From IMG/VR virus record IMGVR_UViG_3300015171_000088, positions 1 through 29,410 of that record: a stretch of 29,410 bases of DNA; one strand, 5' to 3'. Below, piece after piece: positions 1 through 16,499 of the stretch. The notes under the pieces were generated by a model that was given only the letters and a program-made list of their open reading frames with translations, was not told the DNA's origin and searched no databases. Origin of the DNA: a virus. Each line of letters begins with the position of its first letter. The first letter of the stretch is position 1. Both the position numbers and the translations under genes were made by a program.

Positions 1-1352
1 TCAGCTAGTAGTCCTTCTAATTTACCCTTAATCAGTAATGCCACATCCTGATGATGGATAAAGATAGTTAATTTTCTATCAGTAGAACCTAGAAATTCCA
101 TTACGGCATCTATGCAATTGTCTACTTTGGATAATCCTGTTAAATGACGCATCCTACCTAGATAGGCTAAAAGATTCATATTATCAGCCATCGAATTACC
201 AGTGAACTCTCCATCATCATATTTCTTTAGAAACTCAGCCATCATATTAGCATAAGCTTCTTCTACTTCTTTTCCTAGATCATGATATGTGTAATTACGA
301 GTGATAACTGGTAGGTCGGGTAATACTTCTTTTCTTTCACGTCTGATTATGAAGTCTTTAGTCTTAGCAGCAAAGTATTCTGGATTCTTAAGTCCTAATC
401 TCTTCATTCCTTCAACACGTACATAATTATTAATAAATCCAATCTCAGTAGGAAATAGTTCAGGATGTAGGATATTGAGGATTGAGAAATACTCCCCAGC
501 ATTATTTTTGATAGGCGTTCCGCTTAATCCTATAACATACTTCATCATAGAACAGATTTTTCTCACAGTCTTTGTCCTACCAGCGTCCGTATTCTTAATA
601 GTTTGCGTCTCATCTAGAATAACTGTTTTAATACCCATCTTGACAAACTTATCCTGAATATTCTCACCTTTCTTCTCTAATCCACCAGTCTTTTTTATAC
701 CAGTTATTTTAGACTCTCTAGCCTTTCTCTCTGCTAGAATATCATATGAGCAAATGTATGCACCGAATCCTTTTACCATCATAACGGGATCATTAATTAT
801 CAGAGATGATTTATTTAGATCAGATAGTTCAGAATCAGCATCCAATTCCTGATTAAAAACCCATTCATTAATTTCATGTCTCCATTGCATTGTTAAGGAT
901 GCTTTAGTTATTACGAGAAAAGGTCCCATCTCAGAATGTAATCTCATAGTTAGCAAAGCCTGAATAGTTTTACCTAATCCCATCTCGTCAGCGATTAATA
1001 CTCTACCATTAGCAGATTCAGTAAACTTTACTCCATCCTTCTGAAACTTATATGGAGTTTTACCAGAAAAGGATGAGATAGAATCTATTGTAGACTCTTT
1101 AGCTTTTGCAACATCCTTAATAATCTCAGAACACCCGCACGTATAACGGCGTAGTGTTACTGATCCCATTTTAATATCTTTATCTTTTGCTGTACGTTTA
1201 GAACATTTAGAACATATCATAGCAAAAGTAGATAAATGTTCTTTCTTATTTTCAGGATGACAATCACATGCACAGTGCGATGGTATAGTCACATCGACAC
1301 AATTGTAATGATCACCTAGAGCGCAATAGCGAGATAGAGTTATTGTTTCCAT
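1..1352 (-). CDS. SNF2-family DNA helicase/translocase with N-terminal Cys/His-rich region (partial, 3' end outside window)
   Basis: Translating the minus strand from the ATG at 1352 gives 450 codons without a stop up to the left edge, so the C-terminus is missing. Superfamily 2 motifs of the SNF2 type are plain: Walker A DEMGLGKT (residues 122-129), motif II DETQ (247-250, where DEAH or DEGH is usual), motif III SGTPIKNN (277-284), the SNF2-typical RRERKEVLPDLP (337-348), and the start of the second RecA domain (FIHHQDVA, about 431-438). Residues 1-75 carry many Cys/His (C10, H15, C18, C28, C30, H32, C47, C50, C72, C74), probably zinc-binding and resembling the N-terminus of the upstream protein. 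A ribosome binding site AGGAAAA lies just before the ATG. Phage SNF2 proteins are ATP-driven DNA translocases acting in replication, recombination or early gene control; which applies here is not visible. It is the last visible gene of the leftward operon. Confidence 0.92.
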   Translation of the reverse strand, partial: METITLSRYCALGDHYNCVDVTIPSHCACDCHPENKKEHLSTFAMICSKCSKRTAKDKDIKMGSVTLRRYTCGCSEIIKDVAKAKESTIDSISSFSGKTPYKFQKDGVKFTESANGRVLIADEMGLGKTIQALLTMRLHSEMGPFLVITKASLTMQWRHEINEWVFNQELDADSELSDLNKSSLIINDPVMMVKGFGAYICSYDILAERKARESKITGIKKTGGLEKKGENIQDKFVKMGIKTVILDETQTIKNTDAGRTKTVRKICSMMKYVIGLSGTPIKNNAGEYFSILNILHPELFPTEIGFINNYVRVEGMKRLGLKNPEYFAAKTKDFIIRRERKEVLPDLPVITRNYTYHDLGKEVEEAYANMMAEFLKKYDDGEFTGNSMADNMNLLAYLGRMRHLTGLSKVDNCIDAVMEFLGSTDRKLTIFIHHQDVALLIKGKLEGLLA

Positions 1353-1409: not shown

Positions 1410-2084
1410 CTAATCCATCCCCATAATCATCTTAGCAGTTTTTTCCGCTTTAGCTTTAGAGAAGCCCATTTTCATATACTTCTCAATAGCTACTTCTAAC
1501 TTAGATAACTTTTTAGTCTCCTCTTTCTCTTTTTTCTCTTTAGCGCGAGATGCCGAGAAAACTAAATAGTCATCCTTGTCAATTTTGAATCCCTGTTCTT
1601 TCATTTCCTGAATCTTATTTGTGCGTGTTTTACGTCCGGCCATCTCCTCAGATTTCAAATTAAGTAACATATCATTTCTCTCAATTATAAATGCTTCAAT
1701 TTCTTCTAACGACATCGCCGCACAGATTTTCATTGCATCATTATAGGGATTAATTCTAAATCCATCTCTCTCAATTGGGGTAGGATTTTCTAGAATAGAT
1801 ACATTATAACTACTACAACGTGAGCAAATAGTAATCTCAGCCACAGTACACTTATGCAATTCATTAACAGTTAAACCATGAGAGAAGATCGCGCCACAAT
1901 TTTTACATAGATGCTGACAAGTTTCTACTATAACTTCTATAATCTCTTTCCTCACAATCCCATCATTACATTTCACGATATGACAATCACATGAGCATAG
2001 TGGTTTATTACATAGAGTATGCTCCCCATTGTGACAGTTAATGGTTAGTATAACATTATCAGCGTTTGGATTATTTTCTATCAT
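1410..2084 (-). CDS. Cys/His-rich putative zinc-binding protein, function unknown
   Basis: 224 aa when started at the ATG at 2084. An in-frame ATG at 2099 would add five residues, but 2084 is preferred: GGAG sits 8 nt upstream and the ATG overlaps the TAA of a small upstream ORF (TAATG). The N-terminal half has CHNGEHTLCNKPLCSCDCH (residues 17-35), then C38, C56, C60, C63, C79 and CSRC (87-90), enough for two or more zinc sites. The C-terminal half is lysine/glutamate-rich and helical and ends in a short amphipathic segment (KMGFSKAKAEKTAKMIMGMD). The first cysteine cluster resembles the N-terminus of the helicase encoded just downstream, so the two may share a partner or a DNA/RNA target. 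One copy of the heptamer GCCGCAC lies at 1717. I do not recognise the family; a nucleic-acid-binding accessory factor of replication or recombination is a guess. Confidence 0.8.
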   Translation of the reverse strand: MIENNPNADNVILTINCHNGEHTLCNKPLCSCDCHIVKCNDGIVRKEIIEVIVETCQHLCKNCGAIFSHGLTVNELHKCTVAEITICSRCSSYNVSILENPTPIERDGFRINPYNDAMKICAAMSLEEIEAFIIERNDMLLNLKSEEMAGRKTRTNKIQEMKEQGFKIDKDDYLVFSASRAKEKKEKEETKKLSKLEVAIEKYMKMGFSKAKAEKTAKMIMGMD

Positions 2085-2209
2085 TACTTTTTCTCCCATT
2101 TTGCTTTAATGATATTGAGTAGAACTCTGATAGCTAATCTTTCTTCCCGTGTGGAGAAATGATTCGGACAATCTGTTATATATTGAATGCAAAATTGAGT
2201 GAGATACAT
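2084..2209 (-). CDS. small 41-aa ORF leading the leftward operon, function unknown
   Basis: ATG at 2209, preceded by AAAGGA at a spacing of 6 nt, opens a 41-codon frame. Its product begins MYLTQFCIQYITDCPNHFST and ends in a basic stretch, KAKWEKK. The TAA stop (2086-2084) shares its last base with the ATG of the Cys/His-rich gene, the usual sign of translational coupling. The good ribosome binding site and exact overlap support a real gene or a translated leader. No domain is recognised. It lies directly downstream, in the leftward sense, of the phased repeat array at 2270-2332, so that array may control it. Confidence 0.6.
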   Translation of the reverse strand: MYLTQFCIQYITDCPNHFSTREERLAIRVLLNIIKAKWEKK

Positions 2210-2269
2210 AATTATCCTTTATTTGTGGAATTGAGAAGATACTCTAATGATGTCGAAAGTCCCAAAAGA

Positions 2270-2332
2270 TTCGTGAATGATTCGTGAAACATTTCTAGAA
2301 CATTTCCGAATGATTTCGAGAACATTCTAGAA
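2270..2332 (-). repeat. iteron array 1: six TTCNNGAA-type boxes at about one helical turn
   Basis: Box starts are 2270 (TTCGTGAA), 2281 (TTCGTGAA), 2293 (TTCTAGAA), 2303 (TTTCCGAA, degenerate), 2315 (TTCGAGAA) and 2325 (TTCTAGAA). The steps are 11, 12, 10, 12 and 10 bp, so all boxes face one side of the helix. Read on the minus strand the unit approximates TGTTCTAGAAA, the same 11-mer as array 2 on the plus strand. The array sits about 60 bp upstream of the first gene of the leftward operon, so it could be an operator, an initiator-binding site, or both. Confidence 0.8.
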
Positions 2333-2463
2333 TTATTTCCCGCTAACCCGTTCGATCTAAAGGACATAGTCATAGAGTACTACATACTAGCATACTACGA
2401 GACACCACCATGGCCTATGACCGACCGACACTTTATGTCCACTAACTAGCCAATTTATGTCAC

Positions 2464-2643: not shown

Positions 2644-2845
2644 GCTATCTATATGATAATAATATATATAATAAAAAAATAAGCGAAGAAAAAGCAAACC
2701 CTAAACCCTCCCCCATCGTTTGGCCACTAAATTGCTAGGTGAACCAACTCTCTGCCGGGGGGGTCTCTGGGGGTGGTTTCCTTCATAGGAGTATATGATA
2801 CTGTTCGACTAACTTCAATAGAATCAGTGAGCTACAGCCAAAAGA

Positions 2846-2918
2846 TTCTAGAATGTTCTAGAAATACCTCTGAAATACCTCTGAAATGTTCTAGAAATGT
2901 TCTAGAAATGTTTTGACC
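2846..2918 (+). repeat. iteron array 2: seven 11-bp phased boxes, unit TGTTCTAGAAA
   Basis: Boxes start at 2846 (TTCTAGAA), 2856 (TTCTAGAA), 2867 (CCTCTGAA), 2878 (CCTCTGAA), 2889 (TTCTAGAA), 2900 (TTCTAGAA) and 2911 (TTTTGACC, degenerate). The steps are 10, 11, 11, 11, 11 and 11 bp, an almost perfectly phased tandem array. The unit reads in the opposite direction to array 1, so the two arrays form a large inverted pair around the AT-rich core. A candidate terminator follows at once (2924-2943). Confidence 0.85.
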
Positions 2919-3038: not shown

Positions 3039-3325
3039 GTCCGATCATGAATAATTATTATGATAAAAGAGAATAAACAGATAAAAAGAGAATAACTATT
3101 CGTGGCCGATCACCTATCAGGTATGACAGATAAGAAGTCTACCAGAATGCCCCGCAGTGAAACCCAGTGACACGTAGACTGACGATCGACACTAGACCTA
3201 GGTGAGTAGTCATCTCGAATGGAATCGTGCAACCTGAAGCACTCTAGGCCAAAATCCAAAAGGGATCAAAACGTTACATAACTATTATCGTTAAGTGAGT
3301 TAATACCTGTAAAATACTTAACAAT

Positions 3326-3454
3326 AGTAAGAAAAATAACACTGTTAAGCAAATAAGTGTTAAGTAAGAGAATGAACAGTAAGAAAAATAACAGTGTTAA
3401 CTATGTCAAGCTAGACACAGAGAAGAAAAAGCAAATGTACAGTGTTAAGTAAGA
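3326..3454. repeat. purine-tract/GTTAA direct repeat family
   Basis: A 23-bp unit (AGTAAGAAAAATAACA, one C/G variable position, then TGTTAA) occurs at 3326-3348 and 3378-3400. A second unit, AGTGTTAAGTAAGA, occurs at 3356-3369 and 3441-3454. GTTAA cores also appear near 3290-3302. This is a third repeat family distinct from the TTCTAGAA arrays, lying just past the leftward terminator of the 3598-4053 gene. Candidate binding sites for a replication or regulatory protein. Confidence 0.55.
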
Positions 3455-3495
3455 TAACGAATAAAAAGCGAAATAAAGAGTCAAAATAAATAGAC

Positions 3496-3597: not shown

Positions 3598-4053
3598 CTA
3601 GTCACTTTCGTCCATCAACATCGTGGCAGTTGCAATCGCCTTCGCGCGTGAAAGTTTCGGATTTTGCTTCTGCATCGCATCGGCCAACTTCTCAATCTTG
3701 ATAGCAGGACCGACCAGAGACGTTTCCATCTTGATCCGCTGATTACGCGAGAAAATAAGCTTCAAGGAATCATAGGCAAGTTTCAGGACTCCGGTTAATT
3801 CCGAAAATTCCTTGTCCACCAGTTCGCCTCCATTCTTTTTCGCATACTCATCTAACCATGCCTGGATACCTGATGCCGTAGAAGGAACTAAAACGAAGGA
3901 ATTATAATCCTTAGTTTTTCCTGCAACATCCGGGTCAGCAAATTTTCCTGTAACTTCTAGAAGTTTGAATCCTGGCGTAGCGGAAGGCACGTCGAACAGA
4001 GTTGTGTAAACTTTTTCGTTAGCGGTTGGTGTTGATACTGTCATCTCGCTCAT
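3598..4053 (-). CDS. self-contained moron-like gene, product of unknown function (151 aa)
   Basis: ATG at 4053 is preceded by CCGAGGAGA (4069-4061), a near-ideal ribosome binding site, and by a consensus-type promoter; a strong terminator follows. The product is 151 aa, soluble, with no signal peptide or membrane segment. Its N-terminal half contains KLLEVTGKFADPDVAGKTKD, a middle part looks beta-rich, and the C-terminus ends in a helical segment (LSRAKAIATATMLMDESD) that resembles the end of the Cys/His-rich protein at 1410-2084. The gene uses G+C-ending codons (GCG, TCG, CGC, ATC) far more than its AT-rich neighbours. Isolation between two gene-free regions, its own signals and foreign composition are the marks of a recently acquired cargo gene expressed apart from the lytic programme, by host RNA polymerase. 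I do not recognise the family; an accessory or host-interaction role is inference. Confidence 0.82.
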   Translation of the reverse strand: MSEMTVSTPTANEKVYTTLFDVPSATPGFKLLEVTGKFADPDVAGKTKDYNSFVLVPSTASGIQAWLDEYAKKNGGELVDKEFSELTGVLKLAYDSLKLIFSRNQRIKMETSLVGPAIKIEKLADAMQKQNPKLSRAKAIATATMLMDESD

Positions 4054-5649: not shown

Positions 5650-6324
5650 ATGACCTTTCTATCTCAAACGGACGCACTTAAGTCTTTAGGTTCCTCTCGT
5701 AACTTGCTTAATAAGTTATCAGGGACTCCTGTATCTTCTAGTGCGCCCGTTCGAGTTATAGAATCTGTTAATGATAAAGATAATGAATCATTTCCGAAGG
5801 AAAACGCACGGGACACTCTAACTACTCCTACTGAGGTTATTGAGGGTGTTGTTGTTTCTGATAATGATAGATCGCAAATTTTACCTAATCCTATTCGTGG
5901 TAAAAAGTTAGGTTCTTCTCATGTATCTGAGGAGGTTAGATTACAAATTGCTACGGATTCTCTTAATGGTGTGGAACAGGTTGATATTGCTCATAAGTAT
6001 GGTATAACTGATAGAACTGTTAAAAGTGTTGTACAGGATATGCGTACCGGAAACGGCACAGAAAAGTTTAATACTGTAGTGGAGGGTAAGAAGCGAGAAA
6101 TTTCTGATTATGCTCTATCTGCTATGCTTCAGTCTCTGCACGTTATAACTCCTCATAAATTGGAAGGTTTATCTGCTAAAGATGCATCATTAGTTGCTAT
6201 GCAGTTGTCTCGCACTGTTTCTAACTTAATGCCGAAAGAGACTATTGTTGATAATCGTACCCAATTAGTTATATTTGCTCCAGGACAGAAATTGGTAGAT
6301 GATTATGAACAGGTTGAGGTATAA
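5650..6324 (+). CDS. HTH DNA-binding protein, small terminase subunit candidate
   Basis: 224 aa. Residues 1-90 are Ser/Asn-rich and probably disordered. Residues about 93-131 form a resolvase-like helix-turn-helix (EEVRLQIATDSLNG, then VDIAHKYGITDRTVKSVV). A helical region follows (150-200), then a short hydrophobic beta segment and acidic tail (QLVIFAPGQKLVDDYEQVEV). An N-terminal HTH, a helical oligomerisation region and a C-terminal tail suit a TerS that recognises the packaging site and hands DNA to TerL. It lies upstream of TerL in the same transcript, though separated by the membrane-protein cluster. A transcription factor of the operon is the alternative. Stop and next start are TAA-ATG with no gap. 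Confidence 0.55.
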   Translation: MTFLSQTDALKSLGSSRNLLNKLSGTPVSSSAPVRVIESVNDKDNESFPKENARDTLTTPTEVIEGVVVSDNDRSQILPNPIRGKKLGSSHVSEEVRLQIATDSLNGVEQVDIAHKYGITDRTVKSVVQDMRTGNGTEKFNTVVEGKKREISDYALSAMLQSLHVITPHKLEGLSAKDASLVAMQLSRTVSNLMPKETIVDNRTQLVIFAPGQKLVDDYEQVEV

Positions 6325-15200: not shown

Positions 15201-16499
15201 ATGGTAAACTCAATCGCTGATGTTTCTGAATCTTTTGATAAAGATTTAGATTTGTTAAATTCTGAAGAAACTGTTGAAGTTCCCCCTTCTGATAAAACTG
15301 CTGATAAAGTAGTTCTTGATAAGGATAAGGAAATTACTCCTTTAAAAGAAGAAGATTATGAAAAAGAGGAAGTAGAACAAGAGGAAGAAAATGAAGATAA
15401 TGACGAAGATAAAGTTAAGGATGAAGAAGAAGTTGAAGAAGATAAATCTAAAGATGAAGATGAAAAAGGTAGCATAGATAAGGTTCCTCAAGCTTCGGTT
15501 AAAGAAGTTAAGGCTAAGTATCCCACTATCTTTAAGGAGTTTCCTGAGTTAAAAACCGCACTTTTCCAAGCTAGAGCATTTAAGGAAGTTTTTCCGTCTA
15601 TAGAAGAAGCTAGGGAAGCTTCTGGTAAGTCTGATGATTTCTCTTTCATGGAGGAGAAGTTACTTTCGGGTAAGCCTGAGGATTTCGGTCAATTTCTATC
15701 AGCTATCAATACAGCATCTCCTAAAGCATTGGAGAGCGTGGCTGGGAATTTTTTACCTACACTGTACTCTATCAATCCGAATCTATATATGGAAGCTACA
15801 GCACCTTTGGCTCAGAATATCGTTAAGGCTATGTATAAGGCTGGTATAACTCATGGGAATGAGAATCTAAAAGCATCTGCTCTACATGCAGCTAAGTATC
15901 TATTTGACGACCATGAGATTGCTACGGATAAAAAATCTATTCCGGCTAAAACTAGTGCTAAAGTAGAAAATGATCCTGAGAGAGTTAAATTTGAGCAAGA
16001 ACGTACAGAGTTTGCTCAGACTAAGTATAATGACTTTAGGGGGGAAGTAGTTGGGGATGCTAAAGATTCTATCATTAGGGTTATCGAGAATGGTTTAGAC
16101 CCATCTTTAACTCCCTATGAGAAAAGAAATGTGATTAATGATATCGCTGCTGAGTTAACTAATGTTCTACAATCGGATAAAGATCACCAGAATATGATGA
16201 ATTCTTTGTGGGGAAGGCACGGAAAAGTAGATAATAAGGAACTAAAGACCAGAATCCTCTCCACGCATCTGGCGCGTGTACGTTCCTTGATTCCTTCTAT
16301 CCGTGCTAAAATTGTAGGTGAAGTTCTGAAACAATCAGGAAGAACATCTGTGAAACCTACTGATGAGAAGAAAGTAGACAATAAAGTACGTGAAATAAGG
16401 TCTGCTGGAAACTCTGGTGGTGGATCAAAGAATAAACCTGTGGACTTGAAAAACGTAGACTGGCGTAAAACGTCAGATATGGATATCTTGTCCTCCTAA
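15201..16499 (+). CDS. scaffold-like protein preceding the major capsid gene
   Basis: 432 aa, start ATG behind AAAGGAAAAAT. Residues 1-95 are strongly acidic and low-complexity (long runs of Glu, Asp and Lys). Residues 95-400 are helical and charged with no enzyme motif, and the C-terminus is basic and flexible. An acidic, coiled, helix-rich protein directly before the major capsid protein is the standard position and look of a head scaffolding protein that guides procapsid assembly and then leaves. No protease motif is seen in or next to it. It contains the single complete AAGTGCGGT word (complement, 15555-15563). Confidence 0.7.
   Translation: MVNSIADVSESFDKDLDLLNSEETVEVPPSDKTADKVVLDKDKEITPLKEEDYEKEEVEQEEENEDNDEDKVKDEEEVEEDKSKDEDEKGSIDKVPQASVKEVKAKYPTIFKEFPELKTALFQARAFKEVFPSIEEAREASGKSDDFSFMEEKLLSGKPEDFGQFLSAINTASPKALESVAGNFLPTLYSINPNLYMEATAPLAQNIVKAMYKAGITHGNENLKASALHAAKYLFDDHEIATDKKSIPAKTSAKVENDPERVKFEQERTEFAQTKYNDFRGEVVGDAKDSIIRVIENGLDPSLTPYEKRNVINDIAAELTNVLQSDKDHQNMMNSLWGRHGKVDNKELKTRILSTHLARVRSLIPSIRAKIVGEVLKQSGRTSVKPTDEKKVDNKVREIRSAGNSGGGSKNKPVDLKNVDWRKTSDMDILSS

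Follow-up and report, generated by a model that had tools for sequence, protein, structure and literature searches.

Six short boxes spaced about one helical turn apart lie upstream of a leftward operon in the viral record IMGVR_UViG_3300015171_000088, and they raise the question of whether they control this operon or belong to a site at which the phage starts to replicate its DNA. The window, meaning the whole stretch of 29,410 nucleotides analyzed here, carries terminase, capsid, and tail genes running rightward from ~5.6 kb and the leftward operon at its left end. The first gene of this operon is probably a 41-aa ORF (2084 to 2209, minus strand) that has a Shine-Dalgarno-like AAAGGA and a stop codon overlapping the start of the second gene, which encodes a cysteine-rich 229-aa protein (1410 to 2099, minus strand). 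A gene for an SNF2-family helicase (3 to 1352, minus strand; PF00176, E-value 1.8e-35) is truncated by the window edge.

Two phased arrays with palindromes and an easily opened center

The six boxes reported at 2270 to 2332 were identified again, with starts at 2270, 2281, 2293, 2303, 2315, and 2325 (steps of 11, 12, 10, 12, and 10 bp), as part of a left array of six boxes of ~11 bp (2262 to 2338, minus strand). They start 61 bp upstream of the probable 41-aa ORF, in agreement with the distance of ~60 bp given in the first-pass annotation. Five of the 6 boxes match the proposed sequence TTCNNGAA exactly, and the box at 2303 is TTTCCGAA, with 1 mismatch. TTCNNGAA is thus present, but it describes the site only partially, because AATACCTCTGA and AATGTTCTAGA follow each other at an 11-bp step in the right array described below, so that the true unit is ~11 bp long (AATGTTCTAGA / AATACCTCTGA) and TTCNNGAA only part of it. 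Minus-strand units of the left array resemble AATGTTCTAGA, with an orientation that is uncertain in near-palindromic boxes. The chain of boxes scored 5.4 against 2.0 for the best shuffled sequence, and a chance origin was ruled out, as none of 300 whole-window or 2,000 regional dinucleotide-preserving shuffles gave a comparable chain.

Other explanations of the repeated letters were considered and rejected. An ORF of 53 aa (2212 to 2373, minus strand) covers the left array, but it has no Shine-Dalgarno sequence, and the unit sequences differ in relatives. An Rfam search of the array gave no match to a known RNA; the array folds stably on both strands, as palindromic repeats should, and we make no claim of an RNA. 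The 11-bp unit spells GTTC-N7-GTTC, the alphaproteobacterial SOS (LexA) box, but this motif is absent from the units of relatives, and a likeness of TTCNNGAA to heat-shock elements was judged coincidental. Pairs of TTCTAGAA elsewhere in viral contigs are mostly unrelated; phased TTCTAGAA boxes were seen within or at the end of coding regions in 2 GC-rich contigs (L004, 6399 to 6430; L087, 3597 to 3630).

A second array, overlooked in the first-pass annotation, was identified 500 bp rightward of the first (2838 to 2917, plus strand), with 6 or 7 units of ~11 bp resembling AATGTTCTAGA and AATACCTCTGA. It has TTCTAGAA at 2846, 2856, 2889, and 2900, with AATACCTCTGA units in between, and both arrays open with the same CCAAAAGATTC..GAATG edge. 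The two arrays bound a 500-bp noncoding stretch. Their inverted and direct matches tie in the window (29 versus 30), and these arrays cannot be oriented relative to each other because TTCTAGAA is itself palindromic.

Inside each array lies an imperfect palindrome of 29 bp with a consensus of about CTAAGTNNTTGATTCNNNNGGACTTAG, in which inverted arms flank a 7-bp center. The palindrome was spotted by eye in relatives, where its enrichment is circular, and sequences outside the training set serve as the fair tests. With a matrix trained on relatives alone, without the window, both window palindromes were found, each abutting an array. The left copy, GCTAACCCGTTCGATCTAAAGGACATAGT (2342 to 2370, plus strand), is the weaker match, with a score of 14.6, a level at which 0.18 matches are expected per shuffled window. 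The right copy, TGTAGCTCACTGATTCTATTGAAGTTAGT (2808 to 2836, minus strand), is the best match in the window, with 0.00 expected and no equal match in 60 shuffled windows. Palindrome copies were also identified in the same region of 5 untrained contigs (L212, L213, L214, L222, and L232). A literature search for the letters of the palindrome found no paper.

The DNA between the palindromes includes a first AT-rich tract (2455 to 2547), which contains the 80 bp of lowest stability in the window (start 2463), and a second AT-rich tract followed by a purine-rich stretch (2650 to 2698). Between them, GTACTAG repeats were read directly from the sequence (2563 to 2650) and were not recognized in relatives. 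A C-rich tract (2699 to 2716) and a G-rich tract (2754 to 2781) follow, and tracts of both kinds occur in the gap of most relatives too. We also observed that CTAG is ~3 times commoner in the noncoding region of the element than window-wide, and that GTTAAGT-centered repeats occur in noncoding DNA rightward of the element (3285 to 3480).

Conservation of the plan in distant relatives

Single-protein searches of IMG/VR returned no close kin, and relatives were recruited through terminase alignments, with terminases 38% to 52% identical; terminase relatives in bacterial genomes were limited to distant or partial matches in MAGs. The same intergenic region with a leftward SNF2 helicase was identified in several relatives. 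Tandem-repeat analysis found paired period-11 arrays in 7 of them (L215, L216, L217, L222, L223, L245, and L259); 3 others (L132, L212, and L213) have one or more 11-bp arrays. An unbiased self-match scan covered 63 contigs and periods 7 to 30; period 11 turned up most often, with all 12 arrays of this period lying at this place. This agrees with the earlier description of one box per helical turn, and the cooperative binding proposed for the boxes is compatible with such arrays recurring at the same position. Because the array-bearing relatives include close kin (L213, L215, L216, L217, and L223 are mutually close, as are L245 and L259), the number of independent cases is smaller than the contig count.

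The unit sequences vary among relatives and include GATACCCGAGA, GATACCAGAGA, CATCACGGAAA, AATCCAGAAAA, and AATACTAGCAA, among others. The first-pass annotation would be refuted if related phages with a conserved operon lacked phased boxes here, and the outcome of this check is mixed: the exact TTCNNGAA box is not conserved (the closest is TTCCGTGAATG in L245), but most relatives spanning the region keep phased arrays. In 7 relatives, the left array matches the right one far better inverted (26 to 42) than direct (3 to 7). There are exceptions: the left array of L132 is not the inverted partner of its right array, the left array of G002 (10 bp) is unlike the right one, and L232 and L241 have the AT-rich center and palindrome-like sites without clear arrays. 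The plan common to the window and its relatives runs from an array to a 29-bp palindrome, the least stable DNA, a second palindrome, and an inverted array. At 9 of 9 loci, the 40 bp richest in AT across the contig lay between the arrays. The least stable 80 bp, computed from nearest-neighbor energies, fell inside the element in 9 of 12 sequences, and the window and relatives of 47.6, 47.3, and 44.6 kb are among these 9.

The distance from array to palindrome is steady at about 8 to 27 bp, and the distance from array to first leftward ORF ranges from about 60 to 360 bp. Since the first is short and the second variable, the arrays belong with the element and not with the start of the operon.

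A probable replication origin

We interpret the reported array, with a probability of about 0.7 on the basis of sequence comparison, as the left part of an iteron-type replication origin that has dyad symmetry and covers about 2262 to 2917. Both the tandem, short, helix-phased repeats and the easily opened AT-rich DNA adjoining them are features of this type of origin that the element shows. In the proposed mechanism, a phage protein would occupy adjacent units along one DNA face, from both ends, and would bend or wrap the DNA, opening the AT-rich center, and a second factor would probably bind the palindrome. Replication proteins of the leftward block, and perhaps the SNF2 helicase, would load at the opened center, and forks would then depart both ways; binding at the left array could regulate the leftward operon too.

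The first-pass annotation had called the boxes a control or initiation site for the helicase operon, and initiation, taken as that of replication, is the part that fits better. As an operator, the phased boxes would be bound cooperatively by a phage regulator that governs the leftward replication operon through its promoter, a reading that draws on their closeness to the first leftward ORF and on a weak promoter-like site (minus strand, 2361 to 2332) overlapping them. Promoter-like hits in the region, however, number 25 against 11.7 expected and are scattered across an AT-rich stretch, and an operator has no need for an easily opened center between arrays. We favor the origin and consider a single operator unlikely because there are two arrays, 500 bp apart, which are inverted in relatives and whose position follows the palindrome and not the gene start.

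Far less probable is a packaging site (pac or cos) recognized by a terminase small subunit encoded 2.7 kb rightward. The gene in question encodes an HTH protein (5650 to 6324, plus strand) that is probably the small subunit by its position, with relatives in 15 of 16 other loci compared around the element. A TerS-like gene lies nearby in the relatives compared, and several contigs start or end near the arrays. Several others continue through the element, however, the ends of the G009 contig are alike across a poly-T run, as fits an assembly break, and packaging leaves the easily opened center unexplained. More improbable still is a partition site of the plasmid R1 kind, to which a ParR-like protein would bind: the repeats are 11 bp long and form two clusters, within the 10 to 11 bp expected of direct repeats at such sites, but the arrays are mutually inverted; a search for StbA/ParM (StbA_N) gave no match and was uninformative, as its controls were silent. 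Equally improbable is a recombination site with arrays as arm sites and the palindrome as a tyrosine-recombinase core, cores of this kind having inverted arms around a short center as the palindrome does around its 7 bp, since phage integrase (PF00589) was absent from all 10 records searched, some of them incomplete, with working controls.

In relatives, the leftward block next to the element codes for replication proteins, which speaks for the reading as a replication origin. The leftward block of G002 encodes DUF3987, a UDG-PolA fusion (UDG-DNA polymerase A), a ParB_N-methylase, an AAA_24 ATPase, a PDDEXK_1 (PD-(D/E)XK) nuclease, and an SNF2 helicase. DNA polymerase A was identified in 10 of 16 records and DnaB in 0 of 10. 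The Rep_3 initiator (PF01051) was likewise found in 0 of 10 records with working controls, and the window holds little of the leftward block. A 151-aa protein (3598 to 4053, minus strand) is, from its position and a weak alignment, the probable counterpart of a leftward protein found there in most spanning relatives, and its position makes it a candidate for the array-binding protein. Homologs with a conserved GPEK..I-type C-terminal part were observed in L209, L212 to L217, L223, and L232. No known family or fold was recognized for it; its predicted structure had a low confidence of 61 (81 for the L216 homolog), and searches of PDB and BFVD with the fold of this protein family gave no significant match.

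The minimum of the cumulative GC skew in G007 falls at 15397, next to the AT-rich center at 15390, and that in G005 is close, whereas the global minimum lies elsewhere in G002, G004, G009, and G011. Because skew follows gene direction and the genes diverge from the element, this lends the origin weak support and proves little alone.

The element resembles lambda ori and the origins of the iteron plasmids P1, F, RK2, and R6K in having repeated sites, here for a putative initiator, beside an AT-rich region suited to strand opening. It differs in its unit of only ~11 bp, in its two inverted arrays flanking the AT-rich center with a palindrome at each, in its location, as lambda ori lies inside the initiator gene and the element does not, and in that no DnaA box (TTWTNCACA) was found in the window. 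DnaA boxes are frequent in iteron-type origins, but they are not universal and not a required feature. Helix-phased iterons with AT-rich DNA next to them mark the origins of iteron plasmids, and the same basic features occur in lambda ori (PMC5043065).

The repeats of R1 parC are arranged in two clusters, and the likeness of the element to the ParR-parC system extends to this arrangement and to the 11-bp repeats. The clusters of the element are instead inverted and about 300 to 500 bp apart around AT-rich DNA, with no partition genes recognized. ParR of plasmid R1 requires two 11-bp repeats (PMC9426499).

In Cluster O mycobacteriophages (Corndog), the parts of the source consulted place a proposed origin at AT-rich DNA that separates divergent operons and is accompanied by repeats (PMC4351075). 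The element shares with it the AT-rich DNA between divergent operons and the repeats alongside; paired inverted 11-bp arrays or a shared palindrome are not described in those parts, and the phages are not shown to be related. Desulfofustis phage LS06-2018-MD01 (L299) is a distant relative with a complete genome and replication genes of the same kind; in it we observed period-12 repeats between divergent blocks near 41300 to 41620, with a GC skew minimum at 41467. Microcystis phage Mel-JY34 (L298), in which a related polymerase occurs together with a DUF3987 protein, carries long inverted repeats flanking an AT-rich center near 44160, without 11-bp arrays.

Few phage origins have been mapped, and hardly any from uncultured lineages. 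The box sequence shifts among relatives while the period, inversion, palindrome, and AT-rich center persist, which offers a natural series for following how initiator and site change together.

The palindrome core in other viral contigs

The core of the palindrome, TAAGTNNTTGATTCTAAAGG, was identified by exact search in at least 120 viral contigs (L315 to L434), against about 3 expected by an estimate that assumes a collection size of about 100 Gb. Among the matches listed, 120 of 125 core sites lie outside long ORFs, 10 of 120 contigs share recognizable genes with the phage family of the window, and a 7-mer recurring at least 4 times stands beside the core at 14% of sites, compared with 1.7% of noncoding control points. 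In two isolates, Pseudomonas phage Epa40 and Burkholderia phage WTB (L435 and L436), the distance between a close match and a DNA primase gene is a few hundred bases, which counts in favor of the origin; a core match in a Granulicella plasmid had no replication gene nearby. We tentatively suggest, as a possibility that we hold to be doubtful, that the TAAGTNNTTGATTCTAAAGG palindrome may be an origin element in general use among many unrelated phages and some plasmids, recognized by a widespread factor and accompanied in each phage by its own inverted phased iterons. If so, the element would be a sequence signature for locating origins in many uncultured phages known from metagenomes. Contig-specific short repeats were often observed around the core, for example, in L362, L407, L411, and L414, and similar proteins of ~215 aa (with a motif like GYK.A) adjoin the palindrome in 4 otherwise different contigs (L340, L348, L362, and L374).
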